Part shown: positions 18,611-41,592 of the stretch, piece by piece
Layout: the number at the start of each line of letters is the position of its first letter
Position numbering within the stretch: position 1 is the first letter of the stretch
Origin: Clostridia bacterium
Lineage (GTDB): Bacteria; Bacillota; Clostridia; UBA1381; UBA9506
Length of the DNA: 47,333 bases
Direction: 5' to 3'
Assembly: GCA_017407515.1 (NCBI GenBank)
Contig: JAFQWH010000093.1
Span: forward strand, 1-47,333
Notes under the pieces: model-generated
What the model was told of the DNA's origin: nothing
Database searches by the model: none
What the model saw: the letters and a program-made list of their open reading frames with translations, nothing else
Program-made: the position numbers and the translations under genes

Positions 18611-18707
18611 GGCCGGGTCCTGCGCAATCTGAGCCTGTGAACCTCGTCAGATGGGGAACCAAGCAGCGATAAGCAGAATCTTGGATGTGATGCAGGATCA
18701 CCCGGTG
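18611..18707 (+). ncRNA. ffs: Signal recognition particle RNA, small bacterial type (4.5S-like)
   Basis: RNA scaffold of the signal recognition particle; with Ffh it targets membrane and secreted proteins. The ends pair: GCCGGGT-CCTGC (from 18612) with GCAGGATCACCCGGT (to 18706). The apical Ffh-binding hairpin is recognisable as CAGATGG, tetraloop GGAA, then CCAAGCAG, preceded by GTGAACCTCGT and followed by GATAAG, all characteristic SRP segments. The core is about 97 nt; no Alu-domain arms of the long Bacillus type are apparent, although a GAAA-capped hairpin lies just 5'. It lies directly upstream of dnaX, as in many Firmicutes. Exact processed ends are uncertain by several bases. Confidence 0.88.
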
Positions 18708-18725
18708 TGAAACAGGTAACAAATT

Positions 18726-31976: not shown

Positions 31977-33011
31977 TTATTCTTCCCAGAAAGAAAGCTC
32001 CGTTCCCAAGCCTTTTTCCATTGCACGGCGATAACAACGAACGGTTACGGCAATGTCTAAAATACCGGCACCAACGGCATTGAAATAAATAATTTCATCG
32101 TCATTTTCACGAGGTGCTTTCTTGCCAACCAGAATTTCACCCAAATCTGCATGAATATCTTCATCTTTCACAAGACCGTCACGCCACATAAGAGCAACGG
32201 TGCTGATCATACGGTGCTTAACGCTTTCCCAATAGTCGCAAACCAGTTTATCGGCTCTCTTAACGCAGTCATGATCCACTTCGTAATCTGCCATGTTCAT
32301 AACCAGGCTGCCCTTTTTCAGCCACTCGCCGCGGATAAAGGGCTCTGATGCCAAGGTAACACAGTCAATAATATCACTGTTGCGAACCGCTTCTTCAATG
32401 TTTTCCGTAGGAATTGCCTTAACGTCCGGATAGGTCTTGGTTACGTAATCCGCAAAACGCTGTGCATTTTCCATGCGAATATCATAAATATACAGGGTAC
32501 GAATACCGGGACGTGCAATACGTGCCGCTTCAAACTGAGTAGGAGCCTGAGCACCGGCACCGCAGATCGTCATAACGGAAGCATCGCTTTTAGCAAGCAA
32601 CTTAATGGCAACACCGCCTGATGCACCGGTACGAATCGTGCTGACCCGGGTACCGTCTGCAATACAAACGGGAAGCTTTGTATCGGGGTCGTTTAAAATA
32701 ACGGTAACGCTGGCACGGGGCAGACCTTTTTTAAAATTCATTGGTCCACTGCCAATCCACTTAATACCTGCCATGTCATATTCACCGCCGATATAACCCG
32801 GCATGGCGTTAATGCGGCCGAGAACGTTTTCGTCCTCAACGGTTTTGCCCCAACGCAAAACGCATTTACCCGGAGAGATAACATCTCCCTCCTGGGTTAA
32901 AACATAGGCACGCTCTACGTCATGAATGGCTTCTGCCATATCGGAAACACCTACGGTTTCCATCGCTTTGTTATTCAAAAATAAAAGATTTGCCTGACTC
33001 ATTTTTTTCAC
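31977..33011 (-). CDS. Ornithine cyclodeaminase/mu-crystallin family protein
   Basis: A 344-residue NAD(P)-binding protein. Family segments are GRINAMPGYIGGEYDMAGIK, ADGTRVSTIRTGASGGVAIK (substrate and cofactor contact region), the Rossmann motif VMTICGAGAQAPTQFEAARI and the following IYDIRMENAQRFADYV. Members include ornithine and lysine cyclodeaminases, alanine dehydrogenases, ketimine reductases and proteins annotated as tyramine oxidase subunit B; the sequence does not tell which applies. It is divergent from a LysR-type gene, with promoter and inverted repeat in between, so the regulator probably controls it. A terminator follows, so it is monocistronic. Amino-acid or imine metabolism is the likely sphere. 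Confidence 0.87.
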   Translation of the reverse strand: MKKMSQANLLFLNNKAMETVGVSDMAEAIHDVERAYVLTQEGDVISPGKCVLRWGKTVEDENVLGRINAMPGYIGGEYDMAGIKWIGSGPMNFKKGLPRASVTVILNDPDTKLPVCIADGTRVSTIRTGASGGVAIKLLAKSDASVMTICGAGAQAPTQFEAARIARPGIRTLYIYDIRMENAQRFADYVTKTYPDVKAIPTENIEEAVRNSDIIDCVTLASEPFIRGEWLKKGSLVMNMADYEVDHDCVKRADKLVCDYWESVKHRMISTVALMWRDGLVKDEDIHADLGEILVGKKAPRENDDEIIYFNAVGAGILDIAVTVRCYRRAMEKGLGTELSFWEE

Positions 33012-33143: not shown

Positions 33144-33989
33144 ATGGAAATTTTACAACTGAGATATTTTTATGAAAGCTCAAAAAACGAGAATTTTGCC
33201 AGAACAGCTGAAAAGTTTATGGTGCCAACGTCTTCGGTTTCCGCCTCGGTGAAGCGTTTAGAGCAAGAACTGGGTTGTTCCCTGTTTGACCGCTTTTCAA
33301 ATCGCATTATGTTAAACAAAAACGGCAAGCGATTGCAACAATCCCTTTGCGTCATTTTAAACGAGCTTGACCAGGTTGTGGAGGATTTATCGACAGGCTC
33401 CGACGACAACCGTGAAATTAAAATGTTGGTGCGTTCCATGCGTAGCAAGATTACGGATTGCATTATTGTTTACAGCACAAAATATCCCCATGCCGCCTTT
33501 AAAACCGCTTTTGACTTCCGGGAAACCAATTTTGAGAACTATGACATCATTATTGATGAGAAAACAGACCGCTATCCGGAGTATGAAAGCTTTGAATTCT
33601 GTAATCTCCGTCTGCGTTTAACGGTAGCTGCCAACAGTCCTCTGTGCGGCAGGAAACTAACCCTGAAACAGCTTTGTAATCAGCCTTTTATCACCATCGG
33701 CGAACAGAGCAATATGCAGAATATTTTGCTCCGTGCCTGCCGCCAAGCCGGATTTACACCAAACATTGCCGTGCAAAGTAATGATATAAAATGTCTGGAT
33801 AAGCTGATTGCCTCCGGTATCGGCATCGGTCTGAGCCGGGAATTCCCTTTGGAAAAAAACAGCGACATTGCCTTTTTGGACGTTACGGATTTTAACGAAC
33901 GCTACACTGTGTACAGCTACTATAAAAAGAAGGCTGCTTACGGCAATGTACAACACTTTTTGAATTTTTTAAAAAACAACGCTATATAA
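33144..33989 (+). CDS. LysR-family transcriptional regulator
   Basis: A 281-residue regulator. The N-terminal winged helix reads LQLRYFYESSKNENFARTAE, VPTSSVSASVKRLEQELGCS and LFDRFSNRIMLNKNGKRL, the LysR pattern. The substrate-binding part, from about residue 90, has two lobes (LRLTVAANSPLCGRKLTLKQ; ASGIGIGLSREFPLEKN). It is slightly shorter than the usual 290-310 residues. TCAGGAGTGG precedes the ATG. It is transcribed away from the OCD-family gene, the classic LysR arrangement, and probably activates it in response to an amino acid or related compound and represses itself. A bidirectional terminator separates it from the acyl-CoA synthetase fusion. Confidence 0.92.
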   Translation: MEILQLRYFYESSKNENFARTAEKFMVPTSSVSASVKRLEQELGCSLFDRFSNRIMLNKNGKRLQQSLCVILNELDQVVEDLSTGSDDNREIKMLVRSMRSKITDCIIVYSTKYPHAAFKTAFDFRETNFENYDIIIDEKTDRYPEYESFEFCNLRLRLTVAANSPLCGRKLTLKQLCNQPFITIGEQSNMQNILLRACRQAGFTPNIAVQSNDIKCLDKLIASGIGIGLSREFPLEKNSDIAFLDVTDFNERYTVYSYYKKKAAYGNVQHFLNFLKNNAI

Positions 33990-34028
33990 AAAAGGTTCTG
34001 AAATCCAATGGATTTCAGAACCTTTTTT
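33988..34028. terminator. Bidirectional terminator between LysR gene and synthetase fusion
   Basis: 19-bp perfect arms (33988-34006 and 34010-34028), core GGTTCTGAAATCC, loop AAT, with A/T tracts at both ends. It begins within the LysR stop region and touches the stop codon of the convergent gene. Confidence 0.92.
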
Positions 34029-36325
34029 TACTGATTCTTCTTAAGGTCATTATTGCGGATTTCCACACGCCGTACCTTACCGCTGATGGTTTTGGGAAGT
34101 TCATCAACAAAATCCACAATTCTGGGATATTTGTAAGGTGCCGTATGGGTTTTAACGTATTCCTGAATTTCTTTCTTGAGTTCATCAGTACCTTGGGTTC
34201 CCTTTGTCAGCACAATTGTCGCCTTAACAATCTGTCCGCGAACCTCATCAGGAACGGGGGTGATGGCACATTCTAAAACATAGGGCAGTTCCATGATAAC
34301 GCTTTCAATTTCAAAAGGTCCGATACGATAGCCGGAGGATTTGATAACGTCATCAATACGGCCTACATACCAAAGATAACCATCTTCGTCCATGGTTGCC
34401 TGGTCGCCGGTATGATAGAACCCGTCGTGCCATACTTCCTTGGTTTTTTCATCGTCTAAATAGTAACCGATGAAGAGACCACAAGGAGCCCCGTCTTTAG
34501 TACGGATACAGATTTCACCTGTGTCGCCGGTTTTACATTCGTTGCCGTCCGGGTCTAAGATAACAACGTCATAGAGAGGGCTGGGTCTACCCATAGAACC
34601 GATTCTCGGCGTTGAACCAACGAAGTTAGCGATAGAAAGGGTGGTTTCGGTCTGGCCGAAGCCCTCCATAATGGTAAGCCCTGTTGCCTTTTTAAACTGG
34701 TTAAATACCTCAGGGTTTAATGCTTCACCGGCTGTAGTTGCGTATTCAATAGAAGACAGGTCATATTTTGACAAATCTTCTTTAATAAAGAACCGGTACA
34801 TTGTGGGCGGTGCACAGAAAGTTGTGATGTTATACTTTTTAAAGAGGGGCAGAATGTCATCAGAATGGAATCTGTCAAAGTCATAGGTGAAGACGCCGGC
34901 TTCGCAGAGCCACTGACCGTAGAGCTTGCCCCAAAGTGCCTTACCCCAGCCGGTATCGGAAATGGTAAAGTGTAAACCGTTGGGGTTTACGTTGTGCCAA
35001 TGCTTTGCCGTGGGGTAATGACCCAGTGCATACTTATATGAATGGGTTGCAATTCTGGGATAGCCTGTTGTACCGGAGGTAAACAGCATCAGCATGGGGT
35101 CGTTGCCGCAGGGGGAATCTGCTTTTCTGTCAAAATGGGTGCTGAAACGTTCCATCTCCAGATTAAAATCATGCCAGCCCTCTTTCTGACCGCCAACCAG
35201 AATTTTCTTCATACCCGGAAATTCTGCAGCCGCTTTTTCAGCCTCAGCCGATACGTCTCCGTCAGCGGTACAAACAATAGCTTTTACGCCGGCAGCTTTA
35301 TATCTGTATGTAAAGTCGTGCTCAACCAGCTGATTGGTGGCAGGAATCGCAATCGCACCGATTTTATGCAGTGCCAGCATACAGAACCAGAACTGATAAT
35401 GACGCTTCAGCACAAGCATAACCGTGTCGCCCCGTTTGATGCCTAAGGATTCAAAGTAGTTAGCGGTTTTTGCAGAATACTTTTTCATATCGCTAAAGGT
35501 AAATCTACGTTCGGATTTATCGTTACCTACCCACATCATAGCAAGCTTGTCAGGGTTCTTCTCTGCAATGGCATCTACACAGTCAAAAGCAAAGTTGAAT
35601 TTGTCATCATTTTTAAAGGTGATGCCGCTAAACACGCCGTTTTCATCGTAGCTTGATTCAATAAAGTTATCAGCAACGGTTTTTGAAGTATCTTTAACTG
35701 TGGCCGTGGTTTTGTTCACAACCGGGCCTTCGGGATATTCATCGCTGAAGTGGCCGTCTTTGGGGTTTAAAACAATGGCGTGGAATTCGCAGCCGCCCTC
35801 TGAGACAGCAATCATACCGTGGGGGATAATACTGTTATAAAAAATGGAATCGCCCTCGTTTAAAACCTCGATGTGGCTTCCTACCTGAACTTTTAAAGAG
35901 CCTTTTACAATGACATCAAATTCCTGACCGTTATGGGAAGCCAGCTTGATGGGTGCATCCTGCTCCTCTGCAAGATAGGGGAACTTAACCAAGAAGGGCT
36001 CCGCCAGCTTACCTTTAAATTTAGGTGCAAGGTTGTTATAAACATAGCCCTGCTTCTTTACAATCTTCATACCGTCACCTTTTCTGGTGATGTTAAAAGA
36101 TGTAAGAGTAGAGCTTGTGCCTTCCAATAAATCAACAACCTCAACACCGCAAGCCTTAGCACATTTGTAAATGAATGTAAAGCTAAAGTCGGTTTCGCCC
36201 TCTTCCAAAAGCTTATAATCCTCTGCCGTAACGCCGGTGAGTTTAGCAAGCTCTTCAGGGGAATAGCCCTTTGCTTCACGCAGGTCTTTAATTCTGCCTG
36301 CAACCTCTTTTAAACTGAATTCCAT
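34028..36325 (-). CDS. XRE-cupin-acyl-CoA synthetase fusion under T-box control
   Basis: A 765-residue three-domain protein. Residues 5-66 are an XRE helix-turn-helix (RIKDLREAKGYSPEELAKLT); about 115-190 are a cupin (GQEFDVIVKGSLKVQVGSHI, EGDSIFYNSIIPHGMIAV), together like HTH-cupin repressors. Residues 225-760 are an adenylate-forming acyl-CoA synthetase: LFTSGTTGYPRIATHSYKYA (P-loop), EGFGQTETTLSIANF, YHTGDQATMDEDGYLWYVGR, IKSSGYRIGPFEIE and the C-terminal catalytic Lys in PKTISGKVRRVE. It resembles medium-chain/branched-chain acyl-CoA synthetases (ACSM-like). AAAGGAG precedes the ATG. A T-box leader with specifier AUC precedes the gene, so expression should rise on isoleucine starvation; activation of a 2-methylbutyrate-like acid for isoleucine synthesis is my inference. 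The acid substrate is not shown. Confidence 0.9.
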   Translation of the reverse strand: MEFSLKEVAGRIKDLREAKGYSPEELAKLTGVTAEDYKLLEEGETDFSFTFIYKCAKACGVEVVDLLEGTSSTLTSFNITRKGDGMKIVKKQGYVYNNLAPKFKGKLAEPFLVKFPYLAEEQDAPIKLASHNGQEFDVIVKGSLKVQVGSHIEVLNEGDSIFYNSIIPHGMIAVSEGGCEFHAIVLNPKDGHFSDEYPEGPVVNKTTATVKDTSKTVADNFIESSYDENGVFSGITFKNDDKFNFAFDCVDAIAEKNPDKLAMMWVGNDKSERRFTFSDMKKYSAKTANYFESLGIKRGDTVMLVLKRHYQFWFCMLALHKIGAIAIPATNQLVEHDFTYRYKAAGVKAIVCTADGDVSAEAEKAAAEFPGMKKILVGGQKEGWHDFNLEMERFSTHFDRKADSPCGNDPMLMLFTSGTTGYPRIATHSYKYALGHYPTAKHWHNVNPNGLHFTISDTGWGKALWGKLYGQWLCEAGVFTYDFDRFHSDDILPLFKKYNITTFCAPPTMYRFFIKEDLSKYDLSSIEYATTAGEALNPEVFNQFKKATGLTIMEGFGQTETTLSIANFVGSTPRIGSMGRPSPLYDVVILDPDGNECKTGDTGEICIRTKDGAPCGLFIGYYLDDEKTKEVWHDGFYHTGDQATMDEDGYLWYVGRIDDVIKSSGYRIGPFEIESVIMELPYVLECAITPVPDEVRGQIVKATIVLTKGTQGTDELKKEIQEYVKTHTAPYKYPRIVDFVDELPKTISGKVRRVEIRNNDLKKNQ

Positions 36326-36383: not shown

Positions 36384-36660
36384 AAAAACCCGTCTCAAAA
36401 TTTCTTTTGAGACTATTTGTGCAACCCGCGGTACCACTCAAATTGCGGAAACAATTCCGCCACTTACCAGGCTCTAACAAGCCTTTTGCCTTAACGCAGC
36501 ATTACGGAAGGAGTCTACTCAGCTTTGCCTTTCGGTCCTCCAACTCAGAAGTGATGGGTCATTGGAAAGCGTTACCATTGGCTCGCAGCAACCGCCAACT
36601 CTCTCCAGGCTCGGCAATCCGACCGTCTTCGTCATAGTTGTTTTGTGATATTCAAATTTA
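36384..36660 (-). promoter_or_regulatory. T-box riboswitch leader, predicted specifier AUC (isoleucine)
   Basis: The minus transcript carries every T-box landmark. The T-box itself is UGGUACCGCGG (plus 36427-36437). A terminator stem of UCUCAAAA/UUUUGAGA type followed by GGGUUUUUUU lies at 36384-36413. Stem I starts CAACUAUGACGAAG and closes with CUUCUGAGUUG (kink-turn plus GAAG/CUUC helix), with a distal arm UUGGC...GCCAA holding GGUUGCUGCGA. The 3' side of the specifier loop reads C-AUC-A directly before CUUC, so the specifier is AUC. UCA or CAU would need a shifted register. Confidence 0.9.
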
Positions 36661-36694: not shown

Positions 36695-36741
36695 TAGTTT
36701 TTTTAAAATTTTTCCGGCGACAACAAAAAATATACAAAAAA

Positions 36742-36779
36742 GCTGCCCTATAAAGCATATTTCATGTTTATAGGGCAGC
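36742..36779 (-). terminator. Terminator of the EamA-M20-CapA-ceramidase-like operon
   Basis: 13-bp perfect arms GCTGCCCTATAAA (36742-36754) and complement (36767-36779), with a U-run in the minus transcript. Confidence 0.88.
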
Positions 36780-36792
36780 CCGTTTTATATGA

Positions 36793-38121
36793 TTAAAAGA
36801 TAGAATTTGCCAGGTCTTGCAAGGTGTCCACCAAAATGTGGCCTGCATCGCGACAAAGGCTGTTAGCACCAAACCGTGCGGAGTAAATTGTGTCATACTC
36901 TAAAACATCTACGGTGGGAATATAGCCCACGGAACGGTTTGTATAGGTGGTAATGAAGCACTTCTCCGTAGGAGATTTAACTTTCAGTTCCAAACCGTAC
37001 TGCAAATAGGGTTCACCGGGCATGGAATAGAGCACCACGTCACCCATACGGACCGCCTGAACTAAAACCTCATAGCTCTTGGGACCCTCTGCAGCACGGA
37101 GCAAAGATTTTGCCATTGCCAGGTTGTACTGGTCCTGATTGGTAGAGCCGGATGCATCAATTTTAACACCCTCAATGGGCTTAACGGTATCTACTATATG
37201 CTGAGCGTTAGCAATTGCTTCCTCGGAAATTTCACGGCTGGGAAGATCTAACCACTTGCCGGCAACCGCTAAAACATCACCGGTAACCGGCTTTGCCTGT
37301 GCAATTGTCTTAATCGCCTCGCCGGCTAAGGTTTTACCCATCATAATATAGTGGTCAGCCGGGTCGGACTCACGGGTAACATCAAAGTGGTTAACATTAC
37401 CGGCAGGACCCATGATGAACACGGTTACAAACTCATCGCCGTACTGTTTTTTCAGTTCCTTTGCCATGATGGCAGAAAAGTCACCGGTATATTCTGTGCC
37501 GCTGACGCAGTCAGAATGGCAACCGAAGTTAATTAAAGCACCCTTAGGCTGACCGTCCTTATCCCGAACAAACAGAACAGGAAGTGACGGGTCAATTTCA
37601 GCCAAGGGACCTACAATATCGCTACTGCCTCTTTCCGGGTTGGTTCTGGGAGTGCCGTTTTTCATGTAATAATCACGGCAGAAAGAAATCCCGTAAACCT
37701 CGCCCTGGCCGTAGTACAGCGTGGTTTCCTCTAACCGTTTATAAGCCAGGGTAACACAGTCTGCAATCAGACGGGTAACAACGTCAAAATACCCTTTTTC
37801 CGCGTCCTGTGCTATTTCGCTTTTCGGCGGTGCGGTCATTCTGGGGATACCGGTATGGGTGTGAACATAAGAAACCATCAGATTTTCTTTTTGAATACCG
37901 GTAAAAGCTGTTACACGGTCTGCTACTGCGTTGTGAACCGCGGTGTTAATCCCGCAACCCTCAACGGAAACAATCGCAAAGGTCTCGCCGCCCTGCTCTA
38001 CCACCATGCTTTTTGCATAGAGTCTGTCTTTTACATCTGAGCCTAAACGTTCGTTAAAATAGCCGGGAATAGAACAGCCAAGGGGCGGTGTAATTTCTCT
38101 TTCATAAAATGCAACTCTCAT
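36793..38121 (-). CDS. Neutral/alkaline ceramidase-like hydrolase
   Basis: A 442-residue protein resembling the N-terminal domain of neutral ceramidases (zinc amidases that split N-acyl sphingosine). It opens VAFYEREITPPLGCSIPGY; YVHTHTGIPRM near residues 86-94 is the His-x-His zinc motif; INFGCHSDCVSGTEYTGDFS and FIMGPAGNVNHFD match further conserved blocks. No signal peptide is visible and the C-terminal domain of true ceramidases is missing, so it is probably cytosolic, acting on another amide or ester. It is the last gene of an operon with an EamA transporter, an M20 peptidase and a CapA-like protein, 18 bp after the last. The substrate is unknown. Confidence 0.75.
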   Translation of the reverse strand: MRVAFYEREITPPLGCSIPGYFNERLGSDVKDRLYAKSMVVEQGGETFAIVSVEGCGINTAVHNAVADRVTAFTGIQKENLMVSYVHTHTGIPRMTAPPKSEIAQDAEKGYFDVVTRLIADCVTLAYKRLEETTLYYGQGEVYGISFCRDYYMKNGTPRTNPERGSSDIVGPLAEIDPSLPVLFVRDKDGQPKGALINFGCHSDCVSGTEYTGDFSAIMAKELKKQYGDEFVTVFIMGPAGNVNHFDVTRESDPADHYIMMGKTLAGEAIKTIAQAKPVTGDVLAVAGKWLDLPSREISEEAIANAQHIVDTVKPIEGVKIDASGSTNQDQYNLAMAKSLLRAAEGPKSYEVLVQAVRMGDVVLYSMPGEPYLQYGLELKVKSPTEKCFITTYTNRSVGYIPTVDVLEYDTIYSARFGANSLCRDAGHILVDTLQDLANSIF

Positions 38122-38139
38122 TTTGTCACCTTTTTCTTT

Positions 38140-39432
38140 CTACCAAGTGCAGCTGATTAAGCCGTCAGCCTCCAAGGTCATTTTTGTGCCGAAAGGTTCA
38201 CTCATATTCTTGATATATTCAAAAATTTCAGGGTTATAGCTGCGACGGGGCAAGCCGTTTTCAGACTTATGACCGTCCATCTTCATTTCAACGGGCATTA
38301 AAGTCAGCTTGGTCAGCTTATTGTTTTCGTCAGTTTCCCAGTAAGGAATTACGCTGCGGAACATTTTCGGGTCTGTCATTAAGCCAACGGTAAAGTTCTT
38401 GGAGCGTTTCTTTAAAAGCTCGTGAACCGTTGACTGGCTGGTTAAACCATGTTTAATGAAAAAGTCGTCCGGTGCAAGCTCAATGCTGTAAAGCTGCAGA
38501 ACAAAATCGCCCAGAGAGTAGAAAATCGGACAATCTTTATAGATTTCAACAGGACGCAAGAGGTGAGGACCGTGACCCACAACGGCGTGAGCACCGGCGT
38601 CGATACAATGACGGGCAAAATCCTGCAGGAATTCTGAGGGGTTTTCCTTAGCATCGCCGGACAGCTGATGGGAATGAACAGAAACCATAATGTAATCTGC
38701 CTGCAGCTGTGCTTCGTAAATAGCTTTATCCACCCGGGCAATATCGGCAGGGTTTACTTCCATAATGTATTTTGCTTTTTCGCCCTCAGTAAATTTTAAC
38801 GGACCAAATTCTGCCTCGTTGTCTGCAAGGTCGGCATAATAGCCTTCTTTGCGGACGATTTCACGGGAGGCGTTAATGTTGGTTTCTTTTGCAATTCTCT
38901 TAATAATCTCAAGGTCTTCTTTAGGAAGCTCTACACGGCTCGAAACTCTGAGGCCGTTAATACCCGGTCTGCCGGGTACACGGGGGCTCTGTTCCCCTGC
39001 CATCATGGCAGCATCAAAGGTGGAGTTAACGGCAATCAGTGCCACACGGCCGTTTGCGGTTTCCAAATATCTGGGAGCGGAAGCTTCTGCCAGGTTTCTG
39101 CCTACGCCGGCGTGGACAAGGCCGCTGTTATTCACAGCCTCTAAGGTCTTTTCAAGGCCGCCGTAAGAAAAGTCAAGCACATGGTTGTTGTTAAAGCTTG
39201 TCATGTTAAAGCCATAGTTCTTAACATCGTCAAGCACCTCAGGATTGGTACGGATATACGTACCGCCGGAGAACTGAGACGCACAGGTTTCGCCCTCGTG
39301 GTTCAGCGTTGTTTCTAAGTTAAAGAAACGGGCATCACCCTGGCGGATAAAGTCACCTAATTCCTCAAAGCCCTTGTACTCCGGAAAAATTCTCTGCTGG
39401 ATAATCATATCCCCTGCTGCTGTAAATTTCAT
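38140..39432 (-). CDS. CapA-family (PGA_cap) metallophosphatase-like protein
   Basis: A 430-residue protein of the poly-gamma-glutamate CapA family, a calcineurin-like fold of unclear chemistry. Metal-ligand segments in order are FTAAGDMIIQQRIF (GD), RFFNLETTLNHEG (NxE), FNNNHVLDFSYGGLEKTL (N-H-D), VHSHQLSGDAKENP (HxH), GAHAVVGHGPHLLRPVEI and PIFYSLGDFVLQ (GDF). Unlike B. subtilis CapA it has no membrane anchor, so it probably acts in the cytosol. Its start overlaps the M20 peptidase stop by one base. CapA homologues next to peptidases suggest handling of glutamyl or peptide-like conjugates, not capsule synthesis; no capBC genes are here. Confidence 0.85.
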   Translation of the reverse strand: MKFTAAGDMIIQQRIFPEYKGFEELGDFIRQGDARFFNLETTLNHEGETCASQFSGGTYIRTNPEVLDDVKNYGFNMTSFNNNHVLDFSYGGLEKTLEAVNNSGLVHAGVGRNLAEASAPRYLETANGRVALIAVNSTFDAAMMAGEQSPRVPGRPGINGLRVSSRVELPKEDLEIIKRIAKETNINASREIVRKEGYYADLADNEAEFGPLKFTEGEKAKYIMEVNPADIARVDKAIYEAQLQADYIMVSVHSHQLSGDAKENPSEFLQDFARHCIDAGAHAVVGHGPHLLRPVEIYKDCPIFYSLGDFVLQLYSIELAPDDFFIKHGLTSQSTVHELLKKRSKNFTVGLMTDPKMFRSVIPYWETDENNKLTKLTLMPVEMKMDGHKSENGLPRRSYNPEIFEYIKNMSEPFGTKMTLEADGLISCTW

Positions 39433-40586
39433 TACTTAATTACCTCCCCTAATGTTGTAGATACCCGAATGGCAACTTCTAAGCCAACGGGAACAGACCA
39501 TTTTTCTAAGTATTCTTCTCTTCTATGTGAACCAGTGTGTATATTAACACCGACATTTAACCCGGGAATGCCGATGGACATAGGAATGTTACAATCGGTT
39601 GATGAACAGCCGTATCTAACCGGTTCCCCGATTACGCTCTCAACAATAGGCCCTACCACTGCCTTTAAGGCTTCCTGCTTGGCAGGATCAAGGTTGCTGC
39701 AAGGTCTGTCACCAACTTTTGTCACATTGACAGTAACGCCTTCTGTACGAGCTTCCTCAAAGATTTTTTCAAAATGCTCCTGCATTTCCGCCAGACACTC
39801 TCTGTCATTAGAACGGTACTCACAAAGCATTTGTGCGTTCTGTGAAATGGTATTAACAGAAGTACCGCCGGAAATGGTACCAACATTATAAGTGGTTTTG
39901 CTACCCTCTCGAACAGGCACTTCAATTTCATAAATTTTTGCTATCATCTGTCCTAAAACCGCATTAGCATTAGGCTTTCCGAACATCTGGTAGGAATGGC
40001 CACCCTCGGTGGTTACCGAAACTTCATACCGATGTGAACCGGCACAACGGTCGCTGATAGTATGTAAATTGCTGTCAAAGGTAATAAACTGTTTTACCCT
40101 GCCTTCAAAATCATGGAACAACTGACGGGTACCCTTTAAGTTCCCCAATCCCTCTTCGCAGGAGTTGCAAACAAACAGAATCCCTTTTTCCGGCACAAGG
40201 TTCTTTTCCACAAAGAATTTTGCCATGAACAAAAGTGCCACAACGCTGATGGTGTCATCACCCACACCGGGGTTATGAATCTTTTCCCCATCGTCATAAT
40301 AAGGCATGGGCTCTAAGTCGGGAAACACCGTATCTGTATGAGCGGCAAAAACTGTTAGTTCATTGCTTGTTTCACAGTTCAGCGGGAAAATAACGTTTAA
40401 GGCTTCGTCAATGTAAACACCCTTTGCACCGGCATTTGTCAGCCAGTTTTTGCAATACTCCGCACGCTTGTGCTCGTGGTGGGACGGTGCCGGAATCAGA
40501 CAAAGATCCTTTAGCACAGCAAACATATCCGCTGTGTTTTCTTCAACGTACTGCTTCAGTTCTGCCTCAAAGCTTTTCCTGTCCAT
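39432..40586 (-). CDS. M20-family metallopeptidase
   Basis: A 384-residue zinc amidohydrolase related to peptidase T, ArgE and DapE. FAAHTDTVFPDLEP gives the first metal His and catalytic Asp, NPGVGDDTISVVALLFMAKF the bridging Asp, and FVCNSCEEGLGNLKGTRQ the catalytic Glu pair. The dimerisation insert lies near residues 180-290 (GGHSYQMFGKPNANAVLGQM), and a last His is in GVNIHTGSHRREEYLEK. No signal peptide. The ATG at 40586 lies inside the end of the EamA gene (20-bp overlap), and CapA overlaps its stop, so translation is tightly coupled. The substrate is a peptide or N-acyl amino acid, not identifiable from sequence. Confidence 0.9.
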   Translation of the reverse strand: MDRKSFEAELKQYVEENTADMFAVLKDLCLIPAPSHHEHKRAEYCKNWLTNAGAKGVYIDEALNVIFPLNCETSNELTVFAAHTDTVFPDLEPMPYYDDGEKIHNPGVGDDTISVVALLFMAKFFVEKNLVPEKGILFVCNSCEEGLGNLKGTRQLFHDFEGRVKQFITFDSNLHTISDRCAGSHRYEVSVTTEGGHSYQMFGKPNANAVLGQMIAKIYEIEVPVREGSKTTYNVGTISGGTSVNTISQNAQMLCEYRSNDRECLAEMQEHFEKIFEEARTEGVTVNVTKVGDRPCSNLDPAKQEALKAVVGPIVESVIGEPVRYGCSSTDCNIPMSIGIPGLNVGVNIHTGSHRREEYLEKWSVPVGLEVAIRVSTTLGEVIK

Positions 40587-41520
40587 GTGTCTTCTCCTCT
40601 TTTTTAAAGTTTAATAAAATGATCCCTGCACAAACCAGCAGGAGAGTCAGCAATAAATTTAGGGTAGATACCCGGCTCTGCTCCGTCAGCATAATTTTAG
40701 ACAGAATGACGCCGAACACAGGCACCGTGAAGTGATAAATCGTGACCTTAGAAACGGGGTTATGGGTCAGCAGAACGCCCCAAAGAGCAAAAGCAATGGC
40801 AGAAAGCAGAGCAAGGTAAACCAAAACACCGACACCTGCCAAACTGTCAAAAGACATCGTTCCTCCGAAGAGCAAGCCTGCTGCAATCAGCACAAGGCCA
40901 CCCAGCATAAACTGATAGCCGCTCAAAACAACGGAGTCTTCGTCTTTTCCGTAACGCTTAATAAGAACAGATGCTGCTGCCGCACTGATGGCAGAGAAAA
41001 TAACAAACCCATCGCCTAAGAAATTCATGTTAAAATCAAGGCCGTTCAGGTTTACTAAAATAATACCGCCAAAACCTAAAATGCAGGCAAAAATCTTTTT
41101 AAAGCTCAGCTTTTCCTGGCGGAACAAAAGGCTTGCAATTAAAAGGCAGAAAAAGGCGTTAGAAGCAGAAAGAACCGTTCCTTTAACACCGGAGGTGTTG
41201 GCAAGACCTATGTAGAAAAACGTGTACTGCAAGGTAGTCTGAAACACGCTCATAATTGCTACTTTGCCAAGATTTTCTTTCTTGGGAAACAGAAACTTTC
41301 TCCGGGCTATACTGTAAATTAAAATGGTTAAAAAACCCGCCAATAAAAACCGACAGCCTGCAAACAAAATAGTCGAAGGTACATTCGGTGACGGGGTCTT
41401 TAAAATCAGCTGATAGCCGGTTTTAATAAAGGGCGTGGCACTGCCCCACAGTGCACAGCACAAAAGGGCACCGATTGCCACAAAAAAGGGATTTTGAAAC
41501 AACTTTGTCTTCTTGTTCAT
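40567..41520 (-). CDS. EamA/DMT-superfamily transporter
   Basis: A 317-residue membrane protein with two EamA repeats and ten hydrophobic segments, e.g. VAIGALLCCALWGSATPFIK at the start, GVKGTVLSASNAFFCLLIAS, and GVLVYLALLSAIAFALWGVL in the second repeat. The C-terminus is basic (NFKKEEKTHGQEKL). It heads the four-gene operon with M20, CapA and ceramidase-like genes, with a strong promoter and an upstream inverted repeat, and overlaps the M20 gene by 20 bp. It likely moves the substrate or product of those hydrolases; direction and substrate are unknown. It differs from the other EamA gene in this window at 2860. Confidence 0.88.
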   Translation of the reverse strand: MNKKTKLFQNPFFVAIGALLCCALWGSATPFIKTGYQLILKTPSPNVPSTILFAGCRFLLAGFLTILIYSIARRKFLFPKKENLGKVAIMSVFQTTLQYTFFYIGLANTSGVKGTVLSASNAFFCLLIASLLFRQEKLSFKKIFACILGFGGIILVNLNGLDFNMNFLGDGFVIFSAISAAAASVLIKRYGKDEDSVVLSGYQFMLGGLVLIAAGLLFGGTMSFDSLAGVGVLVYLALLSAIAFALWGVLLTHNPVSKVTIYHFTVPVFGVILSKIMLTEQSRVSTLNLLLTLLLVCAGIILLNFKKEEKTHGQEKL

Positions 41521-41563: not shown

Positions 41564-41592
41564 ATTATAGCCTTTTTTAGGTTTTTTGTAAA
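41564..41592 (-). promoter_or_regulatory. SigA-type promoter of the EamA-M20-CapA-ceramidase-like operon
   Basis: On the minus strand, TTTACA (41592-41587), 17-bp spacer, perfect TATAAT (41569-41564), 45-70 bp before the EamA ATG. Confidence 0.78.

Follow-up and report, generated by a model that had tools for sequence, protein, structure and literature searches.

A recurrent M20 peptidase–CapA gene pair within a predicted epimerize-then-hydrolyze operon of a Clostridia bacterium

Why would a transporter of the EamA family, an M20 peptidase, a "capsule synthesis" protein and a relative of neutral ceramidase be encoded side by side? The 4 genes lie in a contig of 47,333 nucleotides from a Clostridia bacterium (the window, by which we mean the whole stretch of DNA analyzed). 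The first-pass annotation, made from the sequence, considered them to be an operon in which 3 hydrolases and a transporter form a cytosolic pathway for an amide-linked or conjugated compound. Here, we asked whether the genes belong together, what the CapA-family protein is likely to do and which pathway the set could constitute.

Operon structure and recurrence of its gene pairs

The 4 open reading frames follow one another on the minus strand in the order EamA, M20, CapA (PF09587) and PF04734, and all 4 families score above the Pfam gathering thresholds (Table 1). A promoter-like site is located approximately 43 bp upstream of the first ATG, that of the EamA gene, which is itself preceded by a GGAG motif, and none of 200 shuffled sequences was as stable as the stem of the terminator downstream of the last gene. 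The coordinates thus confirm the proposed operon of overlapping or closely spaced genes with a single promoter and a single terminator. As had also been remarked, no signal peptide is visible in any of the 4 proteins when the sequences are inspected by eye rather than with a predictor. The host genome is fragmentary (1.42 Mb, 80.5% complete); its nearest named relative is an Oscillospiraceae metagenome-assembled genome (MAG), the CapA protein of which is 97% identical, and the other relatives are mostly MAGs from the ruminant gut or rumen.

Table 1. Features of the operon and of other parts of the window.
Feature	Position	Strand	Details
Small SRP RNA, bacterial	18611-18710	+	67.4 bits
Ornithine cyclodeaminase-family gene	31977-33011	-	Divergent from the LysR regulator gene
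LysR regulator gene	33144-33989	+
XRE/cupin/acyl-CoA synthetase fusion gene	34028-36325	-	MbcS model, 449 bits (cut-off 850)
T-box leader	36405-36644	-	Upstream of the fusion gene; 84.5 bits (cut-off 93)
Intrinsic terminator of the operon	36735-36778	-	Stem and U run; -29.1 kcal/mol, z -6.7
PF04734 protein (neutral ceramidase catalytic fold), 442 aa	36793-38121	-	6.4e-15; 18 bp after CapA
CapA-family protein (PF09587), predicted MslH-type C-alpha epimerase, 430 aa	38140-39432	-	1 bp overlap with M20
M20 exopeptidase/deacylase, 384 aa	39432-40586	-	PF01546/PF07687; 20 bp overlap with EamA
EamA (DMT) transporter, 317 aa	40567-41520	-	PF00892, 1.2e-28
Promoter-like TTTACA-17-TATAAT	41564-41592	-	11/12 consensus positions; consensus match alone

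Outside the operon, the T-box leader has a perfect promoter and a score under the cut-off exceeded by most of its relatives. It precedes the fused XRE/cupin/acyl-CoA synthetase gene in all 12 loci tested, with the isoleucine specifier AUC in the window and in 8 aligned relatives. The best NCBIfam match of the fusion protein is the branched-chain acyl-CoA synthetase MbcS, and the sequences suggest that 2-methylbutyrate activation could be controlled by isoleucine starvation.

Relatives of the CapA protein were gathered from genome collections and their neighborhoods compared, with the loci collapsed at 90% identity to 61. In 40 of these 61 non-redundant loci, the CapA gene has an M20 gene on its own strand no more than 250 bp away, and in 45 there is one within 6 kb, compared to 16 of 616 other genes of the same loci with an M20 neighbor of the former kind, a yardstick that is, if anything, inflated because the loci were picked for CapA. 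Chance association of the 2 genes is thereby ruled out, and so is the condition under which the first-pass annotation would have been set aside, namely, a merely accidental joining in this genome; the neighborhood search that it called for instead revealed pairs that recur. The M20 partner is mostly of the type found in the window, a different M20 subfamily (c11) being present in some loci, and in some the order of the pair is reversed, suggesting that the linkage arose or was rebuilt more than once. The host genome itself carries a second M20–CapA pair (locus L041). The pairwise distances of CapA and M20 are correlated (Spearman 0.83, 38 pairs), a result that shared descent alone could also yield.

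The remaining links are rarer. EamA adjoins M20 in 7 of the 16 M20 loci of the order, including the window operon and its near-identical relative, and EamA and PF04734-type genes likewise recur with partners less often than M20 with CapA, the links of EamA and of window-type PF04734 representing few independent lineages. Our initial ceramidase-like cluster proved too broad, as it united 440-aa PF04734 proteins with more distantly related ones of 500 aa and with a family of 450 aa that matches fucose isomerases weakly, so that its occurrence near CapA in 11 of 61 loci is an upper bound; PF04734 proteins of the window type adjoin CapA only in the window, in the near-identical relative and in 1 other lineage (G012). 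The complete set of 4 genes occurs only in the window genome and this relative. Thus, the conserved unit is the M20–CapA pair and the four-gene set is narrow. No description of an M20–CapA unit was found in a literature search covering papers outside subscription access.

CapA is patchily distributed: of 121 relatives, 15 carry it, as do 12 of the 398 genomes from the phylum. The protein is 72% identical in another family of the class compared to 55% within the genus, suggesting horizontal transfer. M20 relatives are found in the absence of CapA in several close genomes; the coupling is therefore optional, and CapA may extend what a pre-existing peptidase can act on.

Relationship of the CapA-family protein to the peptide epimerase MslH

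The window CapA matches PF09587 with 175.5 bits (gathering cut-off 27), and its best curated family and sole convincing solved relative is MslH, to which it aligns over the full length with 200 bits and approximately 30% identity. The score against the NCBIfam model of MslH (NF038314), 222.6 bits, falls far under the equivalog cut-off of 700, so the window protein is no orthologue of MslH. A predicted structural model (pLDDT 89.6) nevertheless superimposes on MslH with a Z score of 49.2, with 423 of 430 residues aligned, an rmsd of 2.5 and a TM score of 0.90.

The substrate of MslH is a lasso peptide precursor, of which it epimerizes the C-terminal Trp; the enzyme binds a single Ca(II) through E44, N87, H259 and H261 and uses the dyads H88/D91 and H295/D11, and mutation of each of these residues abolished or reduced activity (PMC10406935). 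Residues D8, E40, N83, H84, D87, H253, H255 and H290 of the window protein correspond to MslH D11, E44, N87, H88, D91, H259, H261 and H295, respectively, the pairing of D8 with D11 being judged from the alignment offset and the structure range. The counterparts of the latter 7 MslH residues are practically invariant in 96 homologues, and D8 is present in 94 of 97 alignment rows, the remainder being mostly gaps. Since these are largely the residues of calcineurin-fold phosphoesterases too, with metal ligands common to both (PMC10406935), they are by themselves no proof of epimerase chemistry, and the assignment leans on the fold as a whole and on the neighboring genes.

Another member of the family, PgsA, is reported to epimerize poly-gamma-glutamate during growth of the chain (PMC7168211, citing Ogasawara 2019). 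In Bacillus subtilis lacking pgsA, the D/L ratio of the polymer was 5/95 versus 75/25, for which the authors gave other explanations (PMC6029982). The capB/capC (pgsB/pgsC) partners are absent from the window operon, where the partners are EamA, M20 and PF04734, and a role in capsule or poly-gamma-glutamate synthesis was accordingly rejected. Sequence, structural model and gene context together make a metal-dependent C-alpha epimerase like MslH the most likely identity of the window CapA, in preference to a capsule or phosphoester function. The gene name "capsule protein CapA" is misleading and had hidden a pairing, widespread among bacteria, of a probable epimerase with a peptidase.

This assignment does not extend to all CapA homologues, given that some plasmid relatives (L153, L157 and L158) lack counterparts of D8 and H290. 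They form a subgroup encoded next to ABC transporters and marked by HHHHHW and HGAP motifs, and their chemistry may differ.

Partner enzymes, proposed pathway and alternatives

The M20 protein is a metallopeptidase of its family, with PF01546 and the dimerization domain PF07687, the metal ligands and the catalytic Glu. Its closest solved relative is a poly(aspartic acid) hydrolase (7ljh, 163 bits), and the metal-binding and catalytic residues H83, D85, D110, E144, E145, H197 and H354 are conserved in that protein and in 45 homologues; N245 and R258 are conserved as well. We take it that residues at positions such as H197, N245 and R258 bind the substrate carboxylate in DapE and carboxypeptidase G2. 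Given their conservation, the window M20 is expected to work on the free C-terminus, the very end at which an enzyme of the MslH type performs its inversion.

The model of the PF04734 protein (pLDDT 78.5) matches the neutral ceramidase 2zws with a Z score of 33.6 over 380 residues. Residues H87, H89, R149, E370, Y400 and Y413 are invariant in the alignment, and the HTH motif, Arg257, the PGE Glu, Tyr579 and Tyr591 of neutral ceramidase have retained counterparts, zinc-site residues among them. The GDVSPN motif, which is crucial for neutral ceramidase activity (PMC5874051), has become GNVNHF, with Asn in place of Ser, and the C-terminal domain is missing. Thus, the "ceramidase-like" label is supported by the fold but not by the motif, nor is a secretion signal visible; ceramide metabolism was rejected, and we regard the protein as a probable cytosolic zinc amidase rather than a ceramidase. 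Further PF04734-type paralogues are encoded in the same small genome (G000; contigs C33, C64, C14 and C27).

From the gene order, the families, the recurrent linkage, the conserved residues and the structural match, we infer an epimerase reaction, an order of steps and a class of substrate. We consider it fairly probable that the operon is a cytosolic "epimerize, then hydrolyze" unit acting on D-residue-containing peptides or N-acyl amino acids. EamA would move the substrate or a product through the membrane, whether inward or outward. CapA would act on a peptide, isopeptide or N-acyl amino acid and invert the residue whose C-terminal carboxylate is free; catalysis would fall to the pairs H84/D87 and H290/D8, arranged around a single metal with E40, N83, H253 and H255 as ligands. 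M20, recognizing the same end, would hydrolyze the amide bond of the accepted configuration and thereby pull the reversible epimerization forward, and the PF04734 protein would trim another amide of the same class of compound. Of the original proposal of a cytosolic pathway, the operon, the cytosolic enzymes with their transporter and, very probably, the amide are retained, and the chemistry is revised, CapA being epimerase-like.

The company kept by CapA elsewhere is often that of peptide breakdown. Its direct neighbor is an M24 peptidase in 3 loci of the phylum and an M55 D-aminopeptidase in 1. Oligopeptide ABC ATPases are found nearby in 9 of the 61 non-redundant loci, and some loci have no recognizable peptidase. 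We also examined 20 annotated plasmid loci from bacteria and archaea with a related CapA, chosen from a ranked list and many of them rhizobial; 15 contain at least 1 of the following: a dipeptide/peptide or similar ABC transporter, M20/DapE, PepT, M24, M55, a D-aminoacylase or an alanine racemase. For instance, LysR, ABC transporter, DapE-like and CapA genes stand in a row in Ruegeria and Sulfitobacter, an ABC transporter, CapA and PepT are found in Shinella, a methionine-type ABC transporter, ArgE/DapE and CapA in Ligilactobacillus, and an alanine racemase lies near CapA in 2 Haladaptatus archaea and 1 Roseateles. Such neighbors fit a racemizing partner for peptide breakdown better than capsule synthesis.

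The compound might also be a sugar- or cell-wall-linked amide, such as a muropeptide-like molecule or a sugar-amino acid conjugate, in whose salvage the epimerase-peptidase pair would perform 1 step. Wall peptides contain D-residues, and in several relatives (L085, L091, L083, L108 and L043/L063) CapA or M20–CapA is clustered with an FGGY kinase, a fucose-isomerase-like protein, a 500-aa PF04734-related protein and an MFS transporter, which may indicate a sugar-linked substrate. The window operon, however, contains no sugar gene, making salvage of this kind somewhat unlikely, and it refines the epimerize-then-hydrolyze reading more than it opposes it. The 500-aa proteins of the sugar-gene cluster often carry GD-x-CPRD where GDVSPN stands.

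It is unlikely that CapA is instead a metallophosphoesterase acting on a phosphorylated conjugate (e.g., a phospho-sugar or a phospholipid-like amide), the amides of which are cleaved by M20 and PF04734. Its calcineurin-like fold, the shared ligand residues and the FGGY kinases encoded in the vicinity of some CapA genes would suit such an enzyme, and YmdB-type phosphodiesterases are the next structural class, but with a Z score of 17.1 over 236 residues they are far weaker matches than MslH, which covers the whole chain. Following the metal-binding Glu stands Thr or a similar residue, corresponding to Val45 in MslH; YmdB Asn40 has no equivalent in MslH, an absence that accompanies the loss of the second metal (PMC10406935). 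Moreover, the neighbors are peptidases, peptide transporters and racemases, not phosphate genes. The notion of 3 hydrolases is thus not supported for the CapA member, which resembles an epimerase over its full length.

An operon that makes a D-residue product, epimerized by CapA, released or trimmed by M20 and exported by EamA for biosynthesis or signaling, appears improbable. The characterized relatives MslH and PgsA are biosynthetic. Many EamA proteins are exporters. Yet we noticed in the operon no gene for a ligase, a precursor peptide or an NRPS, and the genes that recur alongside encode importers and exopeptidases of catabolic function. Finally, chance assembly of the 4 genes is barely credible, for although the exact set is confined to 2 near-identical genomes, its pairwise links recur with altered order and partners.

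Significance and comparison with known systems

Beyond the window, many bacterial and archaeal proteins that carry the label "capsule synthesis protein CapA" are quite possibly, as we tentatively propose, not capsule proteins but calcineurin-fold epimerases. Together with exopeptidases (M20, M24, M55 or PepT) and transporters for peptides, they would serve in the consumption of peptides or acyl amino acids containing D-residues. Calcineurin-fold peptide epimerization is already known from lasso-peptide and poly-gamma-glutamate synthesis. Its widespread catabolic use, if true, would add a further, unrelated enzyme solution to the enolase-superfamily dipeptide epimerases and PLP racemases, cause a large "capsule synthesis" family to be renamed, make D-residue peptides accessible to gut bacteria and provide small, testable epimerase-peptidase pairs.

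The logic of inverting a residue and then hydrolyzing the amide is that of the YcjG/YkfB-type dipeptide epimerases with their peptidases, which act on murein peptides, and of N-acylamino acid racemase with aminoacylase. Those epimerases belong to the enolase superfamily, whereas the window candidate has the calcineurin fold. Compared to MslH, the epimerase of the lasso peptide MS-271 (PDB 8gq9 and 8itg), the window CapA has the same full-length fold and mapped metal and catalytic residues, but it is divergent in sequence, is partnered with M20 and stands in a catabolic setting. PgsA of the PgsBCA synthetase also has PF09587 and is reported to epimerize residues within a peptide chain (PMC7168211); it is part of a membrane-bound polymer synthetase, whereas in the window CapA no membrane anchor can be seen, and its gene neighbors that of a peptidase. 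The window M20 has its metal and catalytic residues in common with the poly(aspartic acid) hydrolase 7ljh, in which N234 is replaced by Ala. The PF04734 protein, in turn, shares the catalytic-domain fold of neutral ceramidase (2zws and 4wgk) and differs from it in the altered motif, the lack of a discernible signal peptide and the missing C-terminal domain.
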